Source: Candidatus Cloacimonadota bacterium (GTDB lineage Bacteria > Cloacimonadota > Cloacimonadia > Cloacimonadales > TCS61). From it: a stretch of 11,037 nt of DNA. Position 1 is the first letter of the stretch, and every line of letters begins with the position of its first letter. Shown here piece after piece: positions 1 to 11,037 of the stretch. The translations under genes and the position numbers were made by a program. The notes under the pieces were generated by a model. It had not been told where the DNA came from, did no database searches, and saw nothing but the letters and a program-made list of their open reading frames with translations. The stretch spans positions 1 to 11,037 of the forward strand of contig JACNIV010000337.1 of NCBI GenBank assembly GCA_014382915.1, given 5' to 3'.

Positions 1-995
1 ACAATATAGGGTCCAACAACACTATAAATCATTGTTTGAAGTTGAGGTTTTAAGCCTGATTGAAACTCAATTGAGCCATATCCATTGGGTTCGCTAAAAT
101 CAAGAGATTTTTCGTAGCTGCTGATTGGACTCCATTCTCTATTTTCATACATAGCACCTGTTGTCATTGTCTCTGTTGCAGTAACTCCAAAACTAATACC
201 AGCTTGAACTGATGCATCGGCATACGCATCTACACTAATTGTTGGATGAATTGTTACGGGTAATAAGCCGATTGTAAAAGTTATTACAGGAAAATTAAAA
301 GTAAAAAGATTAATTTCATTTTGAGAATTATATTCAATACTACTTTCAAAGGTTAGATCTTTTTCAAAAGTGTTTACTAATTGAATATCGAATTCATCTA
401 ATTGCCAATTACTAATATCAACATTCATCAACATTTCAGCTGTAAAATTTAATGTTCCTACAATTGTGATCTGGTCATCTGTCGTATTAGAATTTCCATC
501 TGCATCGTAAATTATACCATCGATTTCTAAAGTGAATAAATCATCACGAGAATTTGAAATTAATTGAACTCCATCAGCATAAGTTGCATTTTCTATTCTT
601 GAGGGTAAAAAAGTATAACTTGCTGATAAAGCACCTTGCTGTAATGCCTCATCTAAAGAAGCATTTTCGGTTGTTACGGTAATTGTATTAGAATTTTCTT
701 GAACATTTGTAACTTTTTTTAGAAAACCATTTGGCATTAAATCGGTAATTCCACTTACGAGAATGTCACCTTCTTCAATATCATCAGTCGTAGAAGTCTT
801 AGAGAATGTAAAAGTGTTTCCATCTGGTGATACAGATTGTAGATCTTCGTTTACTTGCGTTTCTTCAAGAACTACAGTCTCGTCAGAGAGAACAACTTCA
901 CCTGGTTCTGGATCGTTTTCAGTTGGACTTTTATCATCACAACCAAATGCAATTAAAATAATTGCAAACAAAATTAAAACTCTAAATTTTTTCAT
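1..995 (-). CDS. Surface lipoprotein, 5' part only (runs off left edge)
   Basis: The reverse strand is open from an ATG at 995 to the window edge (331 codons plus two bases), with GGAGGA seven bases before the ATG. The protein begins with a Lys-Lys N-terminus, a hydrophobic stretch (about residues 4-17) and a lipobox-like A-F-G-Cys19, followed by DDKSPTE, so it is probably an acylated envelope lipoprotein. Residues about 60-105 carry the pattern GDILVSGIT...PNGFLKKVT...ENASLDEAL, which I recall as a recurring N-terminal module of bacterial surface lipoproteins; that is memory, not a search. The remainder is Thr/Asn/Ser-rich and looks beta-stranded, with no catalytic motif. The function is unknown. 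It is co-directional with the recombinases but separated from them by 137 bases, so it is probably transcribed separately. The coding assignment is confident; the role is not. Confidence 0.85.
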   Translation of the reverse strand, partial: MKKFRVLILFAIILIAFGCDDKSPTENDPEPGEVVLSDETVVLEETQVNEDLQSVSPDGNTFTFSKTSTTDDIEEGDILVSGITDLMPNGFLKKVTNVQENSNTITVTTENASLDEALQQGALSASYTFLPSRIENATYADGVQLISNSRDDLFTLEIDGIIYDADGNSNTTDDQITIVGTLNFTAEMLMNVDISNWQLDEFDIQLVNTFEKDLTFESSIEYNSQNEINLFTFNFPVITFTIGLLPVTIHPTISVDAYADASVQAGISFGVTATETMTTGAMYENREWSPISSYEKSLDFSEPNGYGSIEFQSGLKPQLQTMIYSVVGPYI

Positions 996-1056
996 TTCCT
1001 TTTCCTCCATTTTATTTTTTTGATGCACTTAACATATGCATGCCACGTCAATTTTT

Positions 1057-1129
1057 TTATTGTACATAACTAACCTATAGTTACAGTAATTTTGTTGTAT
1101 AATAACTTTTTTAGTAGTTATTGTACAAC
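1057..1129. repeat. Candidate recombinase site: lox/dif-like inverted repeat plus direct repeat
   Basis: Positions 1094-1107 (GTTGTATAATAACT) and 1116-1129 (AGTTATTGTACAAC) form an inverted repeat matching at 13 of 14 positions around an 8-base centre (1108-1115). The 10-mer TTATTGTACA in the right arm occurs again in direct orientation at 1057-1066. A further TAACTA/TAGTTA inverted pair lies at 1067-1072 and 1078-1083. Two inverted arms of 11-14 bp around a 6-8 bp centre is the known layout of tyrosine recombinase core sites, and this one sits four bases beyond the stop codon of the intact recombinase. Its use as an attachment or resolution site is inference. A terminator is the main alternative, but no T-run follows the hairpin on the minus strand. 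Confidence 0.4.
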
Positions 1130-1132
1130 TAG

Positions 1133-2221
1133 TCAATCTTCCATATCTATACTATCTAAAGGACTCTTGATTTTGTTCATTCCAATAGAAGTTACATGAG
1201 TATAAATTTCAGTTGTTTTCGAACTTTTATGCCCTAAAATCTTTTGAATATATCTCAAGTCTTCTCCCTGCTCCAAAAGATGTGTTGCAAAACTATGCCG
1301 TAAGCTATGTACTGATACTTTTTTGTCAATAATTGTTTTTTCTAGAGCTTTGTAAAATATCTCCTGTACACTTCTTTTACTGTATTGCCCGCCATTAACT
1401 CCTTCAAACAGCCAAATCTTAGGTTTGAATTCCTTAAAATATTTTCTCAATAATACGAGCAATTCTATTGATAGGATTGTTGTTCTATCTTTCTTACCCT
1501 TCCCACCCCGAATATAGATCAATTTTCTATCCGAATCAATATCTGCGATTTTAAGGTTAACTGCCTCGCTTAATCTCAATCCGGCAGAATAGATCGTTGA
1601 TAAGATTGCTCTGTGTTTCATATTATTAGTGCAGTCAATTATCTGTTTCACTTCCCGTTTACTAAGCACAATAGGCAGTTTCTGTTCTTTGCTTTTAGGA
1701 ATCTCAAAATAATATTTCTTCGTTTCTCTTCTCAATATCTTTTCAAAATAAAATTTGATAGCACTGATCACCTGTTTCTGAAGAGAAAAAGATATTTTCT
1801 TTTCATTCAATAGGAACAACATATATTCTTTCACATCCTCATCGGTTAGTTCGGACGGATCTTTTTTAGAATAATAATTGAAAAATCTAATGATCTGTTC
1901 TTTGTAAACTACAATGGTATTTTCACTATATCTCTTCAAAATTAGTTGATCACTATAATCTTTTAATGCTTTCTCAAAGGGAGACATTTTCTTCATTTCT
2001 GTTTGTGGTTTGGAAGGGAATAGCTTTAGGAATTGTTCCAAGCACTTTTTGGTTTGCGGCATAACCCAGCTTTGCTGAGGTCCGCTAAAATAACAACCCT
2101 GAATTGTAATACCATGAGTTTTATTAAATTCAAAAGAAAGTACATCAATTTTGTATCTGTTTTTTGAAATCGGTGTTAAACAATAATCATCAGTTTTTAT
2201 CTTATCCATACCTTGCACCAT
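1133..2221 (-). CDS. Tyrosine recombinase, integron-integrase/XerD-like, catalytically intact
   Basis: This 362-residue protein should cut and rejoin DNA through a phosphotyrosine intermediate. All catalytic residues are visible: Arg216 (YSAGLRLSE), Lys241 (GGKGKKDR), His305 and Arg308 (VHSLRHSF), His331 (ILGHKSSKTT) and nucleophile Tyr340 (EIYTHV). The SAM-like core-binding domain covers about residues 80-165 and the catalytic domain about 180-345. The C-terminus, IKSPLDSID, matches the SPLD ending I remember for integron integrases, but the insertion specific to IntI before the HxLRH box appears absent. An extra N-terminal domain (1-75) contains W52-V-M-P55, aligned without gaps to the same domain of the upstream paralogue. 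The start is uncertain: Met1 (AAGGG nearby) or Met5, because the first codons merge with a G/T-rich repeat. It lies 42 bases after its paralogue and is probably co-transcribed with it. The gene is much more AT-rich than the peptidase gene to the right, suggesting mobile origin. Confidence 0.93.
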   Translation of the reverse strand: MVQGMDKIKTDDYCLTPISKNRYKIDVLSFEFNKTHGITIQGCYFSGPQQSWVMPQTKKCLEQFLKLFPSKPQTEMKKMSPFEKALKDYSDQLILKRYSENTIVVYKEQIIRFFNYYSKKDPSELTDEDVKEYMLFLLNEKKISFSLQKQVISAIKFYFEKILRRETKKYYFEIPKSKEQKLPIVLSKREVKQIIDCTNNMKHRAILSTIYSAGLRLSEAVNLKIADIDSDRKLIYIRGGKGKKDRTTILSIELLVLLRKYFKEFKPKIWLFEGVNGGQYSKRSVQEIFYKALEKTIIDKKVSVHSLRHSFATHLLEQGEDLRYIQKILGHKSSKTTEIYTHVTSIGMNKIKSPLDSIDMED

Positions 2222-2263
2222 TTACCCTTTACCAAACACCTCTAACCCAACACCTTACACCTC
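2222..2263 (-). repeat. G/T-rich C-free spacer of degenerate GGTGTTR units between recombinases
   Basis: Read on the minus strand, the 42-base gap contains no C at all and consists of degenerate units such as GGTGTAA, GGTGTTGGG, GGTGTTTGG and AAGGGTAA. The pattern continues into the first codons of the downstream recombinase (ATGGTGCAAGGT). It looks like a simple repeat that expanded between the two genes. It contains the only candidate ribosome binding sequence (AAAGGG) for the downstream gene. Confidence 0.5.
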
Positions 2264-3334
2264 TTATACATCCAAACTATCTAATGGACTTTGAATTGCA
2301 CTCAAGTCTCTTTTGCTTACTCTCAAATATTTCATTGTAGTCTTAGAATGTTTATGCCCCAGCATCTGCTGAATATATCGGACATCAACTCCTTTTTCCA
2401 ATAAATGAACAGCAAAAGAATTTTTTAAGATGGAAAGCGTTGCAGGCTTGGTTATTCCACTTTTATCTACTGCAGTTTTAAAAGCTTTCTGAATATTTCT
2501 CTTCGAATACTGCATCCCGGGTTTGTTTTCAAACAACCATTCCTGAGGTTTATATTTTTTGAAATATTCTCTCAGCAAATTTAGAATTTTCTCCGATAGA
2601 ATTACGAATCTGTCTTTCTCTCCTTTTGCACTACTTACAAAAATTTTCATTTTATTAGAATCAATATCTTTTATCTTTAAATAAGTTATCTCACTGGGAG
2701 ATAGACCTGCTGAGTATATAAGAAATATCATACATTTATCTCTTAAATTATTAATATTCTTTAGGATTTTACTAACTTCCTGCTCATTCAAAATTTTAGG
2801 AATCGTTTTAGCTTTACGGGGTCGTGGAATGAAAAAGTCATCAATAGTTCTATTTATTACTTCATTATAATAAAATTTAATTGCATTTATCGCATTGTTT
2901 TGTGATGAAGTAGAATACTTTTTTTCTTCAACCAAAAAGAGAATGTATTGCCTGATCTCATCAAAAGTGATCTCTTCCGGTTTTGTATTTTTAAAGTATC
3001 TTAACAACTGCTGGAAATGAAGTCGATATGTTTTGATCGTTGGCTCACTATAGTTCTTTAATTTTAGAGTTTCAATGTATTCCGCTGGTAATTTAATTTT
3101 CTTCTCTATTTTGCTTTCAGAAGTGTTTTCTATAAATTCCAGTTTCCCATGAAATTTTTCATTCAATTCTTTTAAATAATTTGCTTGATAAGGAATATGC
3201 CAGAATTTGTTAGAAGCAGACCATTTTCGCCCTTTAATTTGCTTAACTAATGTTATGACATCTTCATTATAATCGAATAGTAAAGCAATTCGTCTCTCAT
3301 TTCTTATCGTGCAAATTCCGGTTTTGATAAGCAT
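2264..3334 (-). CDS. Tyrosine recombinase paralogue with degenerate active site
   Basis: This 356-residue protein is homologous to the downstream recombinase over its full length, including the N-terminal domain (W38, W45 and P48 in GRKWSASNKFWHIP), the core-binding domain (about 80-165), the catalytic domain and the IQSPLDSLD ending. Catalytic positions are altered: the first Arg is Ser212 (SAGLSPSE), and the HxxR box reads LSILKNSF, giving Ser301 for His and Lys304 for Arg. Lys237, His327 and nucleophile Tyr336 remain. Loss of both arginines should abolish normal strand cleavage, yet the frame is undamaged, the preserved ITKPAT and LLEKG segments look selected, and the start has a good AAGGA site six bases upstream. 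It may be a structural or regulatory partner of the intact enzyme, or a decaying gene in an early stage. It is the first gene of the probable two-gene unit. Confidence 0.9.
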   Translation of the reverse strand: MLIKTGICTIRNERRIALLFDYNEDVITLVKQIKGRKWSASNKFWHIPYQANYLKELNEKFHGKLEFIENTSESKIEKKIKLPAEYIETLKLKNYSEPTIKTYRLHFQQLLRYFKNTKPEEITFDEIRQYILFLVEEKKYSTSSQNNAINAIKFYYNEVINRTIDDFFIPRPRKAKTIPKILNEQEVSKILKNINNLRDKCMIFLIYSAGLSPSEITYLKIKDIDSNKMKIFVSSAKGEKDRFVILSEKILNLLREYFKKYKPQEWLFENKPGMQYSKRNIQKAFKTAVDKSGITKPATLSILKNSFAVHLLEKGVDVRYIQQMLGHKHSKTTMKYLRVSKRDLSAIQSPLDSLDV

Positions 3335-3360
3335 TTAAAATCCTTGTTAATATTTCACAA

Positions 3361-3376
3361 ACGAAACTGCTTTCGT
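3361..3376 (-). repeat. Small hairpin in the recombinase leader
   Basis: ACGAAA and TTTCGT pair around the loop CTGC, 27 bases upstream of the recombinase start codon. A TTGACA-like hexamer on the minus strand lies just beyond it, but no matching -10 sequence sits at a sensible distance. The hairpin could be part of the leader transcript; nothing more can be said. Confidence 0.3.
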
Positions 3377-3419
3377 GAGTTATTTCTGTCAAAGAAAAAT
3401 TATTTAACACTCCCGGAAA

Positions 3420-3450
3420 CCCACGAATTAATTCGTGGGATTAAACGAAC
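3420..3450 (+). repeat. Perfect 20-bp palindrome with ATTAAACGAAC tail (REP-like copy 1)
   Basis: Positions 3420-3439 (CCCACGAATTAATTCGTGGG) form a perfect palindrome, followed directly by ATTAAACGAAC. The same arrangement, with a diverged palindrome and an almost identical tail, recurs at 3777-3805. A palindrome plus conserved flank is typical of REP elements mobilised by single-strand transposases, but no such transposase is in the window. Confidence 0.6.
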
Positions 3451-3459
3451 AACAACCCG

Positions 3460-3480
3460 GTGGGTTGGCAACCAACCTGC
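3460..3480. repeat. Hairpin, GGTTGG/CCAACC stem
   Basis: GGTTGG (3463-3468) pairs with CCAACC (3472-3477) around CAA, and the stem can extend by one GC and two GU pairs to nine pairs. It lies 10 bases beyond the first palindrome tail. Confidence 0.5.
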
Positions 3481-3612
3481 AAAAATCAGACTCTTCCGTC
3501 TTCGCTCTGGATACGGAGCTACGCCGGACACGGTCGTCGAATGCCATTGAGAGCATTTCTCAGAGAGACAGCCTTTTCTTGTTCCCACAACACCATGCGG
3601 TTTCTCATGCTT

Positions 3613-3651
3613 GTCAGCCTTGGGCTGATTCCCGTTTAACTAAAAGGGAAT
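3613..3651. repeat. Two abutting hairpins
   Basis: CAGCC (3615-3619) pairs with GGCTG (3623-3627) around TTG. Immediately after it, ATTCCC (3628-3633) pairs with GGGAAT (3646-3651), with extra TTT/AAA pairing inside across a one-base bulge. Two abutting stems resemble coaxially stacked helices of a structured RNA or a complex repeat. No T-run follows, so this is not an intrinsic terminator. Confidence 0.45.
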
Positions 3652-3670
3652 AGCACCTGTCTAGGCGTAT

Positions 3671-3684
3671 CCGGCAGTTGCCGG
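3671..3684. repeat. GC-rich hairpin CCGGCA/TGCCGG
   Basis: CCGGCA (3671-3676) and TGCCGG (3679-3684) are perfectly complementary, so the usable stem is about five pairs with an AGTT loop. It is the most GC-rich structure in the gene-free region. Confidence 0.45.
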
Positions 3685-3735
3685 AGAAGACTGAAGGGAT
3701 TCTACTGACTGGTGTGATTTTATAATTCCATTATC

Positions 3736-3752
3736 ATGATCGGGACGATCAT
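3736..3752. repeat. Hairpin ATGATCG/CGATCAT with GGA loop
   Basis: Seven perfect pairs enclose a GGA loop. The same loop occurs in the CAGCC-GGA-GGCTG hairpin at 6944-6956 after the peptidase gene, so both may belong to a family of extragenic palindromes. Confidence 0.5.
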
Positions 3753-3776
3753 TCTTACCTATTTCATTCAATAAGG

Positions 3777-3805
3777 TCCCCGATTTAATCGGGGATTGAA
3801 CGAAC
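3777..3805 (+). repeat. Palindrome with ATTGAACGAAC tail (REP-like copy 2)
   Basis: TCCCCGATT (3777-3785) and AATCGGGGA (3787-3795) form a palindrome about one central T. ATTGAACGAAC follows the GGGG run and differs from the tail at 3440-3450 at one position in eleven. The stem sequences of the two copies differ but both centre on a GATTTAATC/GAATTAATTC-like core, which indicates related, diverged elements. Confidence 0.55.
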
Positions 3806-3826
3806 TTTATTGTAACGAGAGAAAAA

Positions 3827-3862
3827 ACCGATTCAACCAGTTCCACCGATTCAACTAATTCT
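3827..3862. repeat. 18-nt tandem duplication
   Basis: ACCGATTCAACCAGTTCC (3827-3844) is followed directly by ACCGATTCAACTAATTCT (3845-3862), identical at 15 of 18 positions. On the minus strand it reads as ELVESV repeated twice, but that frame has no ribosome binding site. It is probably a simple sequence duplication. Confidence 0.55.
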
Positions 3863-3929
3863 CCCATTCCAAAAAGTTTATTGCCTAATTTCTTACCATT
3901 TCCTTAAGTTGACATCGATCAAACCCGAT

Positions 3930-3937
3930 GGGAGGAG
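3930..3937 (+). promoter_or_regulatory. Ribosome binding site that fixes the peptidase start
   Basis: GGGAGGAG lies two bases before the ATG at 3940, with the GGAGG core four bases away. The in-frame ATG at 3928 overlaps this site and has no site of its own, so 3940 is the likelier start and gives a clean MKK signal peptide. Confidence 0.75.
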
Positions 3938-3939
3938 AT

Positions 3940-6903
3940 ATGAAAAAAGTTTTACTTTTTACTTTTATATTTTTCGTAGTTTCATGTATATTCGCAGAAC
4001 ATAAAATCCAAATGCCGGATTTCAAATACATCGTTCAAAAGCAGATAGAAGCAGCCGAAATGAAGGCGCAAACTTACGCAAAGTGGATGGATGGTATGCG
4101 TGAAGATACTCGCGAAATGGATAATTACGATGTGCGTTATTATTTTATCGATATCGATATTAACTTCGATACACAGTATGTAGAAGGCTCTGTAGAGTCC
4201 CATCTTGAGATCATGGAAAACGCCACTTCGGAGATCTGCTTTCATTTTACCACCGATCTGGATGTGGATGATATCCTGATGAATGGTCAAAGCCTTATTT
4301 TTACTCATGCGGACGATCTCATAGATATCGATCTGGGATACACATACCAGGCAGGTGATATTATCGAACTGGTCGTGCAATATTCCGGTTACCCGCAAAA
4401 CAGGTTGAACGATGGTATGAAATTCCAGGAACACAATGGCGTACCTATTGTATTTACCATGGTGTCTCCCAAAGGAGCACGTAAATGGTGGCCCTGTAAA
4501 GACACACCTGCCGATAAACCCGATTCTCTCGATATCTGGATCACATATCCTTCCCAATATATCAGTGCTTCCAACGGAACTTTGCAGGAAGTGGTGAATA
4601 ACGGCAATGGTACCAGCACCAGTAAATGGCACGAAGCCTTTCCTATCTGTACATACCTTACGTCTTTTGCTATTACCAATTACCAGATGTACTCTTTTGT
4701 ATGGGAATATGAAGGCACCCAGATGATGGTGGATAATTACATTTATCCCGAACAATATGCCATCAGTGTTTCTCTTTATGAATTGTGTGAAGATATGCTC
4801 ACGTTCTATTCCTATATTTACGGTGAATATCCCTTCATAACAGAAAAATACGGTCATGCCACCTGTACCAATCTGGGAGCGCTGGCTATGGAACATCAGA
4901 CTTGTACCTCATTCGATTCAGGTTACATTAGCGATCCTGCAGCAGAATATACCGTAGCTCATGAACTGGGACATTCCTGGGCGGGAGATTGCCTGAGCAT
5001 CGGTTCCTGGAGTCATGTGTGGCTTAAGGAAGGCTTTGCTTCCTATAGTGAAGCCCTGTGGGCAGAACATCTTTACGGCATGGAAGCTCTGTATGAATAT
5101 ATGCTGGCCGAAGACTCCGGGTCCCAACTGGATGAATGTCTGTACCGTGATGAAACACTGGGAGCCAATCATATCTTTAATACTGTTGTTTACAGGAAGG
5201 GTTCGTGGACTCTTCACATGCTGCGAGGTGTGATCGGGGATGAAGATTTTTTCCAGATGCTCACCGAATTCATGCAGGATCCCGACTTGAAATATGGAAA
5301 TATGCTGACCGAGGATCTGGAGAATTCCACGGAAAACGTTACAGGTTACGAAATGGACTGGTTCTTTGATGAGTGGTTCTGGAATTATGGACGACCAAGA
5401 TATAAATTTGTTACCTATACTTCCGATGTTTATGATTCCCTCAAAGTCACTTTATATTCAGAAGGCAGCCAGGGTGATCCATTTTCGATGTTCGTTCCTT
5501 GTATTGTAAACGGAGAAACAGACAGGATCTGGGCAGATGACGGATTTAATTATGAAACCATTTTCATGGAAGGTGAACTTGATTCCCTGGTTTTTGATTA
5601 TGATAACTGGGTGCTGGATTACGGATATACTGAGAAGATCCCACACCTGGATGAGGTGAGCATGAACCGCGATGGAGCGGCAGTAATTACCTGGGAAGAG
5701 TTCTTCGATCCGGCTGTGGAGGGATTCAATGTTTACCGTAAAGAAGCAGGTGGGGAATATGTGCAATTGAACACTTCGGCTGTAACCGGTACTGCCTATT
5801 TTGATGAGGATGTCATTCCTGGAGAGCAGTATTATTACAAAATTGCTGCTGTGTTTGATAGTGATGGAAATTACCTGAGTAAGTTCTCCAATGAGATATC
5901 TGTTATACCTGTAGATTTTACCCTCGATCAGGGTATTCTGCTGGTGGACGGCACCTGGGATTATGCTGCCGCTTCACCTTTTCCCACAGATGAAGAAGTA
6001 GATGAATATTACGATCAGCTTCTGCAGGGATATGCTTTTACCAACTGGGATGTGAACGAAAACGGACTGCCGCCTTTAGAGGAAATTGCGCAGTATTCCA
6101 GTATTATCTGGCATACGGATGATATGGTGAACCATCCATTTAATGCCGATGTATATAATGTAAAAAGCTATCTTTTGGCAGGTGGAAATCTTTTGATCTC
6201 TGCCTGGAAATTACTTTTTAATCTTCCGCAAAATTTTTCTATTTACTACCTGAATTTTACTGATCCGTATACTAACGTAGAAACGGATTTTGCTGGAGCT
6301 TTCGGGCAGATGGGCTTTCCTGATATTGCAGTAGATACCGATAAGATACCATTGTCGGTCTGGGGAGATAATTTGCAATATGTTAATAAATTCATTCCCG
6401 GAGCAAGTGCAGAACCCGTTTTCCTGTTTGATTCTGTTGTAAATGACCCCGAATGGGAAAATGCTGTTTGCGGACAGAAATATGAAGCTGAATACAATGT
6501 TTATGTGTTTGGTTTTCCTCTGTATTATATGCAGCAACCACAAGCCCGGCAGATTGTTAATATGATTTTACAGGATTTCGGAGAATCAACAAGCGTTGAA
6601 GAAAATTTTATTCAAACAAACAATATTTCATTACATAATTACCCGAATCCTTTTAATCCTGAAACAATTATCTCATTTAATCTCACCGCAGAGGACGCTG
6701 AGTACGCAGAGTTAATAATCTATAATCTGAAAGGGCAGAAAGTAAGAACATTGAATATTGAAAATTGTAAATTGAATATTGGGAAAGCAGTCTGGAACGG
6801 AACTGATGAATCTGACAATCAAGTGAGTTCTGGTATTTATTTTTACCAGTTTCAGGTAAATGGCAAATCAATGGTCAGCAAAAAGATGTTATTGTTGAAA
6901 TAG
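3940..6903 (+). CDS. Secreted M1-family zinc aminopeptidase with C-terminal sorting domain
   Basis: This 987-residue protein has an N-terminal signal peptide (MKKVLLF... to about Ala19; a Cys16 after VVS makes a lipoprotein signal possible but less likely). An N-terminal beta domain occupies about residues 45-240. The catalytic domain carries HELGH at 341-345 and zinc ligand Glu364, exactly 18 residues after HExxH, as in family M1, and Tyr418 is the likely transition-state stabiliser. The exopeptidase GAMEN motif is replaced by LAMEH (315-319). It should trim N-terminal residues from peptides outside the cell. A fibronectin-III-like domain spans about 566-658, followed by a region (about 662-885, ILLVDGTW...) that looks like a Rossmann/amidotransferase-like fold; this is inference. 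NYPNPFNPET from residue 900 begins an 88-residue type IX-type sorting domain. The large helical C-terminal domain of long M1 enzymes is absent. Base composition is about 46% GC in the catalytic part. The start at 3940 is chosen because GGAGGAG precedes it. Confidence 0.93.
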   Translation: MKKVLLFTFIFFVVSCIFAEHKIQMPDFKYIVQKQIEAAEMKAQTYAKWMDGMREDTREMDNYDVRYYFIDIDINFDTQYVEGSVESHLEIMENATSEICFHFTTDLDVDDILMNGQSLIFTHADDLIDIDLGYTYQAGDIIELVVQYSGYPQNRLNDGMKFQEHNGVPIVFTMVSPKGARKWWPCKDTPADKPDSLDIWITYPSQYISASNGTLQEVVNNGNGTSTSKWHEAFPICTYLTSFAITNYQMYSFVWEYEGTQMMVDNYIYPEQYAISVSLYELCEDMLTFYSYIYGEYPFITEKYGHATCTNLGALAMEHQTCTSFDSGYISDPAAEYTVAHELGHSWAGDCLSIGSWSHVWLKEGFASYSEALWAEHLYGMEALYEYMLAEDSGSQLDECLYRDETLGANHIFNTVVYRKGSWTLHMLRGVIGDEDFFQMLTEFMQDPDLKYGNMLTEDLENSTENVTGYEMDWFFDEWFWNYGRPRYKFVTYTSDVYDSLKVTLYSEGSQGDPFSMFVPCIVNGETDRIWADDGFNYETIFMEGELDSLVFDYDNWVLDYGYTEKIPHLDEVSMNRDGAAVITWEEFFDPAVEGFNVYRKEAGGEYVQLNTSAVTGTAYFDEDVIPGEQYYYKIAAVFDSDGNYLSKFSNEISVIPVDFTLDQGILLVDGTWDYAAASPFPTDEEVDEYYDQLLQGYAFTNWDVNENGLPPLEEIAQYSSIIWHTDDMVNHPFNADVYNVKSYLLAGGNLLISAWKLLFNLPQNFSIYYLNFTDPYTNVETDFAGAFGQMGFPDIAVDTDKIPLSVWGDNLQYVNKFIPGASAEPVFLFDSVVNDPEWENAVCGQKYEAEYNVYVFGFPLYYMQQPQARQIVNMILQDFGESTSVEENFIQTNNISLHNYPNPFNPETIISFNLTAEDAEYAELIIYNLKGQKVRTLNIENCKLNIGKAVWNGTDESDNQVSSGIYFYQFQVNGKSMVSKKMLLLK
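6685..6711 (+). repeat. In-frame triple 9-mer (NACGCAGAG-type) inside the sorting domain
   Basis: Three tandem 9-mers, ACCGCAGAG, GACGCTGAG and TACGCAGAG, lie inside the peptidase gene and encode TAEDAEYAE in the sorting domain. The unit is like CGCAGAG-type repeats that I recall as common in intergenic DNA of environmental bacteria. The nine-base period keeps the frame. Confidence 0.6.
6750..6781 (+). repeat. In-frame AATTGAAAATTG-type repeat inside the sorting domain
   Basis: ATTGAATATTG occurs exactly at 6750-6760 and 6771-6781, separated by AAAATTGTAA, and encodes NIENCKLNIG. A similar repeat lies in the opposite orientation in the spacer at 6961-6998, where the minus strand reads AATTGAAAATTCAAAATTAAG. 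The same kind of low-complexity sequence is therefore both coding and non-coding within 250 bases. Confidence 0.6.
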
Positions 6904-6942
6904 AATACAGACTGCGTTCTCATCACAAATGCAATAATGAAA

Positions 6943-6998
6943 CCAGCCGGAGGCTGATATTAATTTTCAATTTCTTAATTTTGAATTTTCAATTAAAA
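6943..6998. repeat. Extragenic hairpin followed by AT-rich simple repeat
   Basis: After the peptidase stop codon, CAGCC (6944-6948) pairs with GGCTG (6952-6956) around GGA. It is followed by TTTTCAATTTCTTAATTTTG-like repeats up to the tRNA end. The hairpin might weakly terminate the peptidase transcript, although it is short and not followed by a clean T-run. It also lies at the 3' side of the converging tRNA gene. Confidence 0.45.
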
Positions 6999-6999
6999 A

Positions 7000-7076
7000 T
7001 GGTACCCCCGGCGCGAGTCGAACGCACGACCTTTTCCTTAGGAGGGAACTGCTCTATCCTGCTGAGCTACGGGGGC
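7000..7076 (-). tRNA. tRNA-Arg (anticodon CCT)
   Basis: The minus strand folds as a complete 77-base tRNA. The acceptor GCCCCCG pairs with CGGGGGT (G-T at the end pair), the D arm is GCTC/GAGC, the anticodon loop is CTCCTAA, and the T arm GTGCG/CGCGC encloses TTCGACT. CCA is encoded at 7000-7002. The anticodon CCT reads AGG arginine codons, and the loop is identical to the one I remember for E. coli tRNA-Arg(CCU). The outermost anticodon-stem pair is a G-A mismatch. It stands alone between convergent and divergent protein genes. A TTGACA on its upstream side (7121-7126, minus) lacks a well-spaced -10. Confidence 0.95.
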
Positions 7077-7195
7077 ACTCTATAATCCTGTTAAATAGGA
7101 AAATTTTTCTTCGCTTTTGATGTCAAGAAAATGATTAAATTGACAAAAAATCCTCTAAATATAAGAAACTTATCATAGTAAAATGGAGTTGAAAT

Positions 7196-8299
7196 ATGTT
7201 AGATTTAATTAAGATCAGAAAAGACCTGCACAAGATTCCAGAATTGGCTTTTGAAGAATTTAAAACACAAGAATATTTATTAAATATTTTGAAAGCATTC
7301 AAAGATATCGAGATACACACATTCGATTTTCCCGGTATCTTAGTAGAATATTCACATGGAGATGGAGATTATAAACTATTTCGTTCTGATATGGATGCAC
7401 TTCCCATCACAGAAGAAACAGATTGTGATTTTAAATCTGCTCACCAAGGGAAAATGCATGCCTGTGGACACGATATGCACATGACCATTCTCCTCGGATT
7501 GATCGATAAGGTGATCAGTGAGAAAATCGCAAAAAACATTCTTTTTCTTTTCCAACCAGCCGAGGAAGGAAAAGGAGGAGCAAAACGCATTCTGGAAACT
7601 GGTGTTCTTGATAAATATAATATATCTGCAGCTTACGCTTTGCACGTCATAGGAGGTATTCCTGTTGGTACAATTTCGACCAGACCGGGAATCTTTTTTG
7701 CCAATACAGAAGAAGTAGATGTGATCTTCAAAGGAAGAAGTGCCCACGTTGCTCTGGCAGAAAAAGGTAAAGACGCACTGGAAGCCGGGGTTGAGTTTTA
7801 CCGGTTAGTTAATGAAAGAGTAAAAGAGAAATTTAATAATTCAAAAGAGATCCTCTGCAAATTCGGAAAAATGAACGCAGGAAATGTTCGAAATGCAATT
7901 GCCGCAGACTGCAGACTTGAGGGAACAATCCGAGCATTTTCTGTAGAAGACCATGATCTATTAAAAGAAATTGTAAAAAATTCTGTAAAAGAAATTTCCA
8001 GAAAATTCAATATAAATGGGAAATGTGAATATTCCAGTTATTACAAAGCACTTATAAATGATAAAAAACTCTATAAAGAATTTGTTAATAAAATCAGCGA
8101 TTCGAAGTACACATTCCGGGAAGCCGATAGGTTGATAGGAGGGGAGGACTTTGGTTTTTTCGCAGAAAAATATACAGGTCTTTTCTTCTGTCTGGGAGCG
8201 AATCAAGGTGAAGAACAGGATCTGCATTCTTCCAGATTTTTGCCTAATGAAAAGGCAATCGAAGTGGGAATTGAAGTTTTTCTGAAATTAATAAGATAA
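7196..8299 (+). CDS. M20D-family metal-dependent amidohydrolase
   Basis: This 367-residue cytoplasmic enzyme belongs to the M20D peptidases (IAA-amino acid hydrolase, hippurate hydrolase and N-acetyl-diaminopimelate deacetylase type), which remove acyl groups from amino acids. The family motifs are all present in order: RSDMDALP (63-70), HACGHDMH (88-95, metal ligands Cys90 and His92), QPAEE (120-124, catalytic and ligand Glu), ALH (His150), a GRSAHVA dimerisation-domain motif (180-186), GGEDFG (315-320) and LHSSRF (His344). Length is near the family norm of about 370-400. The start is supported by GGAG seven bases upstream. It appears to be a single-gene unit. The physiological substrate cannot be told from sequence; deacetylation of N-acetyl-diaminopimelate or scavenging of acylated amino acids are both possible. 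Confidence 0.92.
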   Translation: MLDLIKIRKDLHKIPELAFEEFKTQEYLLNILKAFKDIEIHTFDFPGILVEYSHGDGDYKLFRSDMDALPITEETDCDFKSAHQGKMHACGHDMHMTILLGLIDKVISEKIAKNILFLFQPAEEGKGGAKRILETGVLDKYNISAAYALHVIGGIPVGTISTRPGIFFANTEEVDVIFKGRSAHVALAEKGKDALEAGVEFYRLVNERVKEKFNNSKEILCKFGKMNAGNVRNAIAADCRLEGTIRAFSVEDHDLLKEIVKNSVKEISRKFNINGKCEYSSYYKALINDKKLYKEFVNKISDSKYTFREADRLIGGEDFGFFAEKYTGLFFCLGANQGEEQDLHSSRFLPNEKAIEVGIEVFLKLIR

Positions 8300-8382
8300 G
8301 TTCTTTTAAAATGAAAAAGGTTAACACGCAAAAAAGCTCATTAACCAATTAAAAAACTTATAATTCTAAATTTATCTAAGTG

Positions 8383-8667
8383 TCATAGATCATCATCATC
8401 CAGGTCAATATCCCCGATGTCGTCTTCCTCTTCATCATCACGCATCCAATCGGGGCAGAAGGCAACATTTTCTGTCTTATCCCAGCCATCCACGTTCTTC
8501 AATCCGAACCTTTCCAGAATATCTGTTTCCCAAAGTGAGTAGCGCACTTTATCATCTACCACTTCATACACTAAAACAGGTTTATGATAGTTTCTTAAAC
8601 TGAAGTCACTATCGCTCAGTTCAAAGAATTCTTTAATTCTCTTCAGATCTCTTTCGGCAATCATCAT
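8383..8667 (-). CDS. Small protein with acidic tail, function unknown
   Basis: This 94-residue protein is not one I recognise. Its start has GGAGG six bases upstream, and the composition is protein-like, which supports a real gene. The N-terminal part (1-75) looks like a compact mixed alpha/beta domain, with PVLVYEVVDDKVRYSLWE suggesting a beta hairpin. Residues 77-94 are a tail in which 13 of 18 positions are Asp or Glu. There is no signal peptide or membrane segment, so it is probably cytoplasmic. It converges on the amidohydrolase gene and diverges from the next gene across an 86-base gap. An acidic tail could mimic nucleic acid or bind metal or a basic partner, but this is speculation. 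Confidence 0.75.
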   Translation of the reverse strand: MMIAERDLKRIKEFFELSDSDFSLRNYHKPVLVYEVVDDKVRYSLWETDILERFGLKNVDGWDKTENVAFCPDWMRDDEEEDDIGDIDLDDDDL

Positions 8668-8753
8668 AATCGGCCTCCGGATTTTTAATCAGAAATCATT
8701 GACCTTTTTCTTTATCCCAATTTCCTCGTTCACAAATGCAGGGCAGGAAAGAA

Positions 8754-10160
8754 ATGTCAAATAAAATAGGAAAAATTTTAAGAAGCATTCCGGGAATTCT
8801 GTGGTTTATGTTATTATCATCAGAAGCTTTGGGATTTGAACCGGATTTCGAAGATTTTTCCTCAGGCTATCAATTTGAACTTTATCATTCCTGGTTGGAA
8901 AAGGGTAATTTCAAGATAGATTTTCCTGCTGGATTTACATCTGCTAAAGTGGTGAAAACGTTTCTGGATACTAGCGGGAAAGAAGTGATAGTAGAATATG
9001 ACTGGCAGGATTGGAAGATATATGATCAGCGGGAAGTATTACCCTATTTTTTTTATGTGGATGAATCGGTGAATATCACACTCTATCTCACTTATCTGGA
9101 AGCGTTCGTATATCGCCTGAATGCTGCAGATAAAGAATATCTGTTTGATTTTGTTGATTTGGAAAGTATTGAGATTCACTATGCGGACAAATCGGGCAAA
9201 GAAGCACTCTCACAACTCTGGAATGATTTTTCTTCCAAGAGGATTAAAGTAGAGCCGATTGAACTTTTTTTGGAAAACGATAAACTCGGATTCAAGATCA
9301 GATTGCATAGTGCAGATGAATTGGATATTCTATTTCCAGAAAATTCAGAATTAATAACTATGCTCGATAAAATAAAACTTAAAGAATTAGAAAAATCCAG
9401 ACCTGTGTCTTATTATAAAGCTCGTGAACCTGCTGTAAAAGAGCAAATACTTCCTACACTGGAAGATCTGTCTCTATCAGAGTATATCAAAAACTATATC
9501 CAAATACCACCCATTCGAGAACTGCTGCACAACAAGATCGGTAACGTACAGGAATTCTTAAGATCAGAATTTCCACACCATCAAATAGACCACAAAGAAA
9601 CAGATTATTCGTTGAAGGCAGAACCTTATGATCGGAACTTCTACGGTGATTTAAATCTGAGAGTTGAACAAAGGACCGACGGTATCAATATTCTTACAAT
9701 GAACGATTTCCAATGTTCCGGGAAGGAGATTATATTCAAAAATGGGGAACAAATAGTTCTTTCCCGGCTTACAGATCATGAATTCGAGCAGACCGCACAA
9801 TTTATTCCTCAGCTTCTTTATGAGCACCGAGCTCTGGGTTCCAAATTGCTGAACTTCCTGCTTATACATGATGACATCCCTACTACTTTAGTGGTTTACG
9901 GTGATGAGCGTGAATTGTATGAGATCGATTCCTATGCCGATCTATTGCTGCTTTTAAACGAATACTGGCACGACAGGATTGTATATTTCAGCCTCAAAGA
10001 GGTGAATAAAATTGACGGCTTTATCGAGTTCAAAGGATTCCTGATAGCAGCTATTCCCGGAAAAGAAAGCTGCGATATGGCTGAGATCCTCTTTCACCTC
10101 GATAAGGATTTCAAAATAGATCTGATAATGATGATACTGCATCCGGAAAATAAATCGTAA
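8754..10160 (+). CDS. Unrecognised 469-residue protein upstream of tatD
   Basis: I do not recognise this protein. The start at 8754 is preferred over the in-frame ATG at 8736 because AGGA lies five bases before it and nothing precedes the earlier one. The N-terminus (MSNKIGKILRS followed by IPGILWFMLLSSEALGF) could be a weak signal peptide or anchor, so an envelope location is possible but unproven. The first 220 residues are beta-rich (FKIDFPAGF, KEVIVEYDW, VNITLYLTYLEAF); a segment around 215-280 is helical (SLSEYIKNYIQIPPIRELL); the last 110 residues alternate strands and helices (IPTTLVVYGD, GFIEFKGFLIAAIPG, KIDLIMMIL). No catalytic motif or Cys cluster is visible. It ends 10 bases before the TatD gene, so the two are probably co-transcribed. 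Confidence 0.85.
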   Translation: MSNKIGKILRSIPGILWFMLLSSEALGFEPDFEDFSSGYQFELYHSWLEKGNFKIDFPAGFTSAKVVKTFLDTSGKEVIVEYDWQDWKIYDQREVLPYFFYVDESVNITLYLTYLEAFVYRLNAADKEYLFDFVDLESIEIHYADKSGKEALSQLWNDFSSKRIKVEPIELFLENDKLGFKIRLHSADELDILFPENSELITMLDKIKLKELEKSRPVSYYKAREPAVKEQILPTLEDLSLSEYIKNYIQIPPIRELLHNKIGNVQEFLRSEFPHHQIDHKETDYSLKAEPYDRNFYGDLNLRVEQRTDGINILTMNDFQCSGKEIIFKNGEQIVLSRLTDHEFEQTAQFIPQLLYEHRALGSKLLNFLLIHDDIPTTLVVYGDERELYEIDSYADLLLLLNEYWHDRIVYFSLKEVNKIDGFIEFKGFLIAAIPGKESCDMAEILFHLDKDFKIDLIMMILHPENKS

Positions 10161-10170
10161 TGGAGATGGA

Positions 10171-10935
10171 ATGAAGATATTTGAAACTCACGCCCATCTG
10201 GATTTTTCTCAATATAATAAAGATAGAGAACAGGTTTTACAAAACTGCTTTAAAAATGGAGTAGAATACATCATCAATGTAGGAGTAGAGCAGAAAACCT
10301 GCCGGCAGAGTATTGCGCTGGCAGAAAAATATGAACAAATTTTTGCAGCAGTAGGATTTCATCCTCATGACGCCAAAAAATATGATAGTAATTTCTTGTT
10401 GAAAATAGCCCGACATCCCAAAGTAGTTGCTATCGGAGAGATCGGGCTCGATTTTTATCGTGATCTTTCTCCGCGCGATATTCAGAGAAATGTGTTCGAA
10501 GAACAGGTCAAAATTGCCCTGGAATTGGAATTACCAATTATAGTTCATGACAGAGAAGCTCACGATGATTGTTTCGATATCCTTTCCAGATATAATCCGG
10601 AAAAAGTGGTGTTTCACTGCTTTTCGGGAGATGAGATCTTTGCCGAAAAAGTTGTAGAAAAAGGCTGGTATATATCTTTCACCGGCTCTATAACATATAG
10701 AAATTATAATCTGGAAAACGTAATTCGCCTGGTTCCACCCGACAGGTTCTTTATCGAAACAGATTCTCCCTATTTGACTCCTGTTCCCATGCGTGGAAAG
10801 CGAAACTCTCCATTATTTCTTCGTTATGTGATAGAGAAAATAGCCGATATTCGTGGTATTTCTCCCAGACAGGTGGCAGAAATAACCTATTGCAATGCCT
10901 GCAATTTCTTCTTGGTGGGAAAGAAAAATAGTTAG
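10171..10935 (+). CDS. tatD: TatD-family metal-dependent hydrolase/deoxyribonuclease
   Basis: This 254-residue protein has the full TatD set: HAH (His7 and His9), GEIGLDFY (Glu90, Asp94), HDRE (His126), HCFSG (His149) and ETDSPYLTP (Asp198), with the usual CNACNFF near the C-terminus. Family members are cytoplasmic TIM-barrel nucleases, linked to 3'-5' DNA/RNA trimming, DNA repair and, in some species, D-aminoacyl-tRNA deacylation claims. Length is typical (about 255-265). GGAG lies near the start, and the gene follows the upstream unknown gene by 10 bases. A probable ferredoxin gene starts 71 bases downstream. The assignment as TatD family is secure; whether it is the orthologue of E. coli tatD or of the paralogues ycfH/yjjV is not resolved. 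Confidence 0.93.
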   Translation: MKIFETHAHLDFSQYNKDREQVLQNCFKNGVEYIINVGVEQKTCRQSIALAEKYEQIFAAVGFHPHDAKKYDSNFLLKIARHPKVVAIGEIGLDFYRDLSPRDIQRNVFEEQVKIALELELPIIVHDREAHDDCFDILSRYNPEKVVFHCFSGDEIFAEKVVEKGWYISFTGSITYRNYNLENVIRLVPPDRFFIETDSPYLTPVPMRGKRNSPLFLRYVIEKIADIRGISPRQVAEITYCNACNFFLVGKKNS

Positions 10936-11006
10936 TCTTAAAAAAAGCTTGAAAGAAAAGGTCGGGTAAATAACTTTGCACCAAATTTTTTTAAATGGAG
11001 GGAAGA

Positions 11007-11037
11007 ATGGCTGTTATCATTAACGAAGAAACCTGCA
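11007..11037 (+). CDS. Probable 4Fe-4S ferredoxin, first ten codons only
   Basis: An ATG at 11007 has a strong GGAGG site five bases upstream and reads MAVIINEETC up to the window edge. This matches the usual opening of small bacterial 2[4Fe-4S] ferredoxins, in which the Cys begins the first CxxCxxC cluster motif. Only the first Cys is inside the window, so the assignment rests on the N-terminal pattern. It follows the TatD gene on the same strand and may be in the same transcript. Confidence 0.6.
   Translation, partial: MAVIINEETC

Follow-up and report, generated by a model that had tools for sequence, protein, structure and literature searches.

We analysed two adjacent tyrosine recombinase genes in an 11,037-nucleotide stretch of Candidatus Cloacimonadota DNA (GenBank assembly GCA_014382915.1, contig JACNIV010000337.1, positions 1 to 11,037; hereafter the window), which is contig C337 of genome G000, 77.8% complete (genomes, contigs and loci are cited by G, C and L numbers). 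The upstream gene encodes a recombinase with a degenerate active site (UP) and the downstream gene an intact one (DN). All observations reported here were made by computation. It is well supported that a conserved pseudo-recombinase is partnered with an active recombinase and that such pairs head integron-like gene-cassette arrays. Beyond this, we lean slightly towards the view that UP and DN form the two-protein integrase of an integron-like cassette platform of Cloacimonadota, in which DN cuts, UP takes the non-cleaving places of a mixed tetramer and exchange is limited to one strand. We call the system integron-like and not an integron because its enzymes are without the IntI-specific insertion. 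An initial annotation of the window had proposed that one partner may have become a non-cleaving subunit, a view that is partly supported; the cassette platform headed by the pair, found in relatives, had escaped it and is new here.

Conservation of the degenerate recombinase and its partner

On a single alignment, the columns in which DN carries R, K, H, R, H and Y hold Ser212, Lys237, Ser301, Lys304, His327 and Tyr336 in UP, which is therefore without three of the five residues R, K, H, R and Y while retaining Lys237, His327 and Tyr336. The initial annotation had these residues and their numbering right, and both frames are open as it described (Table 1). UP and DN are 40% identical over 348 residues, and both are matched far over cut-off by Pfam Phage_integrase and Phage_int_SAM_4; against model NF040815 they score slightly below the cut-off of 220 bits (DN 208.5, UP 206.3). 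The predicted structure of UP retains the recombinase fold, and among its PDB fold matches the active enzymes XerA, IntI, XerH and Cre rank above recombinase-fold repressors. A further recombinase of the same genome (L003) exceeds the cut-off of the Xer subfamily model NF001399.

Tandem pairs were searched for in 147 relatives and 124 genomes of the phylum, and 10 were found, in 9 genomes. The upstream protein is degenerate and the frames are open in 10/10, and the downstream protein is intact in all 9 pairs whose contig holds its catalytic domain. Among 24 rows of single relatives (L026 and L074 being the same place), 20 carry RKHRHY, two (L021, L073) end before the Tyr and two distant ones (L030, L040) deviate. 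The table of pairs and singles leaves aside fragmentary or broken loci (L004, L011, L027, L029, L031, L032, L044, G035:C148) and many lower-scoring matches from both genome searches. L021 (G034:C302) looks as if a UP-type N-terminus had been fused to a DN-type catalytic domain, either a natural hybrid or an assembly error; its contig ends inside the gene.

Among the best 120 of 1147 UP homologues in the protein database, 86 are altered (window's UP included) and 34 are RKHRHY. All 86 degenerate proteins have 2-4 of the five residues R, K, H, R and Y replaced: ArgI is Thr/Ser in 84, HisII is Thr/Ser in 84 and ArgII is Lys in 81. His327 is retained in 84/86 and the Tyr in 77/86 (Phe in 8, a gap in 1), and a C-terminal SPLD tail is present in 84/86. 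At 31 positions, many of them around the dead site, a residue unlike the commonest one of the intact proteins is common to more than 80% of the degenerate ones. The best 120 of 8000 scored DN homologues comprise 115 RKHRHY proteins, 2 that are cut and 3 that differ. The longest contig equals in size that of a listed DN-type protein for 33/86 degenerate and 0/34 intact UP homologues, a comparison in which sizes, not names, were matched and which covers listed proteins only.

Where it could be estimated, dN/dS is about 0.1 for both UP and DN (finite dS in 8/36 UP and 11/36 DN comparisons). Gene order and pairing in relatives, the Ser/Lys-type substitutions and dN/dS of the upstream gene were the checks by which the initial annotation proposed to tell a conserved non-cleaving partner from a decaying duplicate, and all three came out for the conserved partner. 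Age was assessed with a tree of 93 rows, comprising the pair rows, 17 of the 34 intact and about one third of the degenerate listed proteins, and six odd ones, with L030, L033, L040, L074 and the cut DN of L064 left out. The 44 sampled degenerate rows form one clade, with support of 100/99 in a rerun without four distant rows (L028, L041, L042, L043). Because this clade is sister to the single intact enzymes and separate from DN, the pair, judged by sequence, is not a fresh tandem copy; most simply, a single-type enzyme next to a DN-type one would have lost catalysis a single time and diversified afterwards.

Mean likeness within Box II, catalytic positions excluded, is 0.875 for degenerate, 0.817 for DN-type and 0.843 for single-type proteins; the corresponding means are 0.553, 0.728 and 0.834 for the core-binding domain and 0.744, 0.704 and 0.794 for the whole catalytic domain (72 DN-type proteins were used, and listing by similarity to the query biases the groups). 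UP and DN distances correlate across nine pairs (Mantel r 0.84, 13/20000 shuffles), and the correlation is r 0.50 (783/20000 shuffles) after removal of L061 and L060.

Two further observations concern UP copies. A second copy in the window's own genome (L004, contig C139, bases 1-193) ends with its contig; it is 84% identical to window 3213-3405, and the flank beyond differs. In L056, L057, L058, L062 and L063 the similarity of UP to the window protein starts only at about residue 82-86, so that the N-terminal extension of about 80 residues is mostly missing, and in L057 and L062 a similar gene start is present upstream of UP.

The attI-like region, the cassettes and the enzyme that serves them

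The attI-like region contains an inverted repeat (1094-1129) whose arms, of 14 nt each, are separated by a spacer of 8 nt. Across the eight pair loci that were aligned, window included, the arms co-vary: both partners have changed in 9/14 pairs, and pairing holds in 93.7% of cells; shuffles were as high in 0/500 on four of five measures and in 158/500 on the number of pair types. A third half-site resembles the arms by 0.79 within a locus and 0.47 between loci (4/40320 permutations). The junction sequence ATGTTA is present in all 7 of the 8 pair loci whose contigs reach it, about 60-100 nt beyond the inverted repeat. The initial annotation took 1094-1129 as the site on which the recombinases assemble; the inverted repeat is real, but it is probably not the crossover, because the spacer length ranges over 8-11 nt among loci and the conserved junction lies further on, and that role was set aside.

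The junction is the exact end of pair contigs L059 and L060 and of single-enzyme contig L070 (at ACATTA), and L063 ends a few bases earlier, as expected if the following DNA differs between cells. Where it was read, the DNA beyond the junction does differ: it encodes a lipoprotein-like ORF in the window, a protein whose outer-membrane match is weak and below cut-off in L056, and in L057 a beta-helix protein that carries a sorting tail. At the nucleotide level, related copies are similar to the window from about 1003-1064 to about 3405; on the upstream side, similarity to L004, L005, L009 and L019 ends at 3398-3405, and a TTGACA box was found in 13/17 upstream stretches compared. A search of the own genome for repeats of the attI-like region returned only the region itself at a meaningful E-value (next best 0.37).

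attC-like sites were sought with two covariance models, R1 and R2, built from 4 and 6 sites, with up to 36 (R1) or 24 (R2) candidates scored per genome. They were found in 49/124 (R1) and 46/124 (R2) genomes, together 53. At the pair of L152 (G033), seven sites on one strand divide eight cassettes behind the pair, one of which has two ORFs; the pair of L156 (G035) has two sites, and the single enzyme of L153 has five on one strand. The pair heads an attC array with the conserved junction in L056 and L057, and in L058, as in the window, the junction is present and the contig ends before any attC. In the window's own genome, R1 matched two sites, both away from the pair (contigs C133 and C201), and R2 matched one. 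Family f10, present in at least 44 genomes among relatives, has no member among the genomes listed with an attC match. Three of the four scanned cassette proteins of L056 and L057 end in type IX-like sorting tails, and beta-helix or PKD domains occur in two.

The stems co-vary in two alignments, A3 and A4, which partly overlap, contain the model seeds and were fitted to the models. In A3, both partners have changed in 11/12 pairs, and pairing holds in 93.7% of cells (at most 45.7% in slid versions), with shuffles as high in 0/500 on three measures and in 7/500 and 55/500 on the other two; in A4, the values are 15/29 pairs and 90.3% of cells (slid at most 44.8%), with 0/500 on four measures and 4/500 on one. 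The extrahelical base of the 3' arm is C in 49/49 and 38/39 distinct sites. When the strands of 13 hand-picked candidates were folded with RNA parameters, the bottom strand folded better in 10 and the top strand in 3.

The pair's family (E <= 1e-50) is present in 23/124 genomes and canonical IntI over cut-off in 7/124. attC-like sites occur in 21/23 genomes with the family vs 32/101 others (Fisher p 1.3e-7), in 7/9 genomes with the pair vs 46/115 (p 0.037) and in 5/7 genomes with canonical IntI vs 48/117 (p 0.14, not significant), shared descent being uncorrected in all three comparisons. Canonical IntI was undetected in 20/21 genomes that have both family and attC, and neither integrase kind was detected in 28/53 attC genomes. 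The spacing from the Lys to the HxxR box is 64 residues in 83/89 family rows and 65-71 in the other 6, compared with 106 in canonical IntI (3/3) and 70 in the Xer-type L003; matches to TIGR02249 (IntI) break at about model positions 179-239. The attI-like regions of the single family enzymes differ in sequence, and the attC types are the same.

Proposed mechanism and alternatives

In canonical IntI, the I2 helix and extrahelical bases draw away one monomer's Tyr; in this system, that task may fall to a separate dead subunit. DN would be the catalytic recombinase and UP a conserved pseudo-recombinase that no longer cleaves, retains its binding to att DNA and assembles with DN into a mixed tetramer. 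DN would stand where a strand is cut, namely at the junction half of attI and, in the folded attC, on the R-box side, whereas UP would occupy the positions that are not to be cut; single-strand exchange would result, with the junction left to replication. In the available part of PMC7790495, second strand exchange is described as deleterious, a problem solved by the extra helix, and I2 as the innovation enabling single-strand recombination; in that of PMC8138268, the IntI insertion is called essential for integron function. Many of the arrays described here are apparently served by integrases without it, some of them paired with a conserved dead partner, which would amount to another form of integron-like recombination and makes testable the question of how a harmful second strand exchange is avoided without I2. 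Only tentatively do we propose that this is a capture system in which an obligate heterotetramer with a dedicated pseudo-recombinase hard-wires single-strand exchange, a solution independent of that of canonical IntI. A natural half-dead recombinase could also serve as a one-way tool.

Several results weigh against the two-protein integrase. Single enzymes with neither the insertion nor UP head arrays of the same attC types (L153, L072 and L066, the last cut off where its contig ends). attC use in itself therefore does not require UP, and a dead subunit alone does not explain these enzymes. The window's own array is cut at base 1, leaving no attC in sight beside its pair, and pair genomes G011 (98% complete) and G013 (75%) have no attC-like site by R1 or R2. 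The UP of L061 retains ArgI, its Lys, His and ArgII being altered; five stop codons interrupt the aligned part of the degenerate copy L011; DN is the better conserved of the two proteins in 35/36 comparisons; and the UP catalytic domain as a whole is less alike (0.744) than that of intact single-type enzymes (0.794). Lastly, the predicted UP fold also matches the recombinase-fold repressors MrpR/YopR and SroF, which lowered our confidence in the two-protein integrase and raised that in a repressor. G011 holds two pairs and a canonical IntI (contigs C75, C89, C128), and its attC type may differ.

The most serious alternative, which we regard as possible though rather doubtful, is that UP is a recombinase-derived accessory or regulatory factor bound at the repeat 1094-1129, whether as repressor, architectural protein or dominant-negative brake on DN, and outside the exchanging tetramer. 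The folds of known repressors among the predicted matches offer a precedent; those repressors nevertheless rank below the active enzymes in the same list, the SPLD tail is kept almost throughout the degenerate proteins, and Box II of UP is far better kept than its core-binding domain, which would be unexpected for mere DNA binding. It is improbable that the arrays were made by canonical IntI and that the pair is part of some other mobile element merely lying alongside. Canonical IntI does occur in the phylum, contig C175 of G035 carries an IntI-like gene together with R1 and R2 attC-like sites, and about half of the attC genomes have neither integrase kind detected. Against this, nearly all genomes with family and attC are without detected canonical IntI, the pair itself heads attC arrays at a conserved junction in two loci, and attC tracks the family, less strongly the pair, and IntI not significantly.

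That UP is still active through Ser/Thr212, Ser/Thr301 and Lys304 in a changed active site is very unlikely. The frequent retention of the Tyr and His327 and the regular Lys304 in place of Arg would fit such an enzyme; yet every degenerate protein has at least two of the five residues replaced, eight have Phe for the Tyr, and the arginine pair is, in the available part of PMC4499138, crucial for transition-state stabilisation. Decay of a duplicate of DN, for which the stops in L011 and the lower conservation of UP would speak, is hardly credible given open frames in every pair, dN/dS of about 0.1 and a single clade that is sister to the single enzymes and not to DN; we rejected it on the conserved clade and selection.

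Relation to known systems and features of the window

Like integrons of the canonical IntI type, the two-protein system has a tyrosine recombinase by an attI-like site, cassettes that point the same way, attC-like hairpins that are imperfect and carry an extrahelical base, and the junction TTA; it differs in having no I2 domain (Lys-to-HxxR spacing 64 vs 106), a dead recombinase before the active one and A or G before TTA. The recombinase stands beside the array in L152, cassettes hold one to few same-direction ORFs in L152 and L153, attC with R''/R' boxes and the imperfect hairpin occur in relatives and elsewhere in the own genome, and an attI with a common junction next to the integrase is recognised from sequence only; the IntI-specific additional domain (I2 helix) was absent among 89 family rows. 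The Treponema integron integrase is transcribed towards attI, in the same direction as the cassettes (available part of PMC3607928), an orientation shared here by a system of two genes whose products are without the IntI insertion.

As in the XerC/XerD dif system, two related recombinases may act on one site. XerC and XerD are both catalytic, unlike UP with its three replaced residues. The phage repressors MrpR/YopR and SroF, which have lost recombinase function, have a recombinase fold without an active recombinase role, and UP is predicted to share the fold. GInts and RIT elements also have several recombinase genes per operon, but three of them, whereas the window, L056 and L057 hold two recombinase ORFs only (E-value limit 1e-15). 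GInts have GinD in addition, and the available part of PMC5385486 makes no mention of an attC cassette array; it describes GinC as without some catalytic domains, a precedent for a reduced recombinase within an operon. The XerA-like model NF040815 ('site-specific tyrosine recombinase/integron integrase') scores 226.2 and 219.8 bits with the single enzymes L066 and L072, and its name also stands on Spirochaetota and Bacteroidota records; unlike such proteins, UP and DN are paired, one of them dead, with an N-terminal extension of about 80 residues.

A literature search, outside which most subscription papers lay, returned no title on integrons of Cloacimonetes/Cloacimonadota, no paper on inactive or pseudo tyrosine recombinases, known integrons only for catalytically inactive integrases, and by title none on such a pair of integrase genes.

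Table 1. Coordinates of features in the window
Feature	Positions	Strand	Remarks
Lipoprotein-like ORF	1..995	minus	no Pfam match; read as first cassette, cut by contig end
Predicted cassette junction	1030..1035	minus	ATG|TTA
attI-like region	1030..1132	minus	downstream of DN; conserved in 8 aligned pair loci
Half-site 3 (putative)	1059..1071	plus	one base shorter; co-varies with arms between loci
Half-site 2 (putative)	1094..1107	plus	other inverted-repeat arm
Half-site 1 (putative)	1116..1129	minus	inverted-repeat arm
Intact tyrosine recombinase DN (downstream gene)	1133..2221	minus	362 aa; RKHRHY; without IntI insertion
Degenerate tyrosine recombinase UP (upstream gene)	2264..3334	minus	356 aa; ArgI = Ser212, HisII = Ser301, ArgII = Lys304
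Conserved upstream region	3335..3405	minus	TTGACA box (3387-3392)

At gathering threshold, Rfam matched only a tRNA in the window: a tRNA-Arg (CCT) at 7000-7076, between an M1-type peptidase-like gene and an M20 peptidase gene, with no link to the pair seen. Eighteen relatives were found on viral contigs, with best segments 22-54% identical; a motif scan found the GH...Y box in 18/18 and the HxxR box in 0/18 of them, which does not decide their degenerate state. Plasmid relatives (E <= 1e-30) came from 369 records, all below 60% identity, and those on the Chryseobacterium plasmids NZ_CP041688.1 and NZ_CP094530.1 are about 40% identical, N-terminal extension included.
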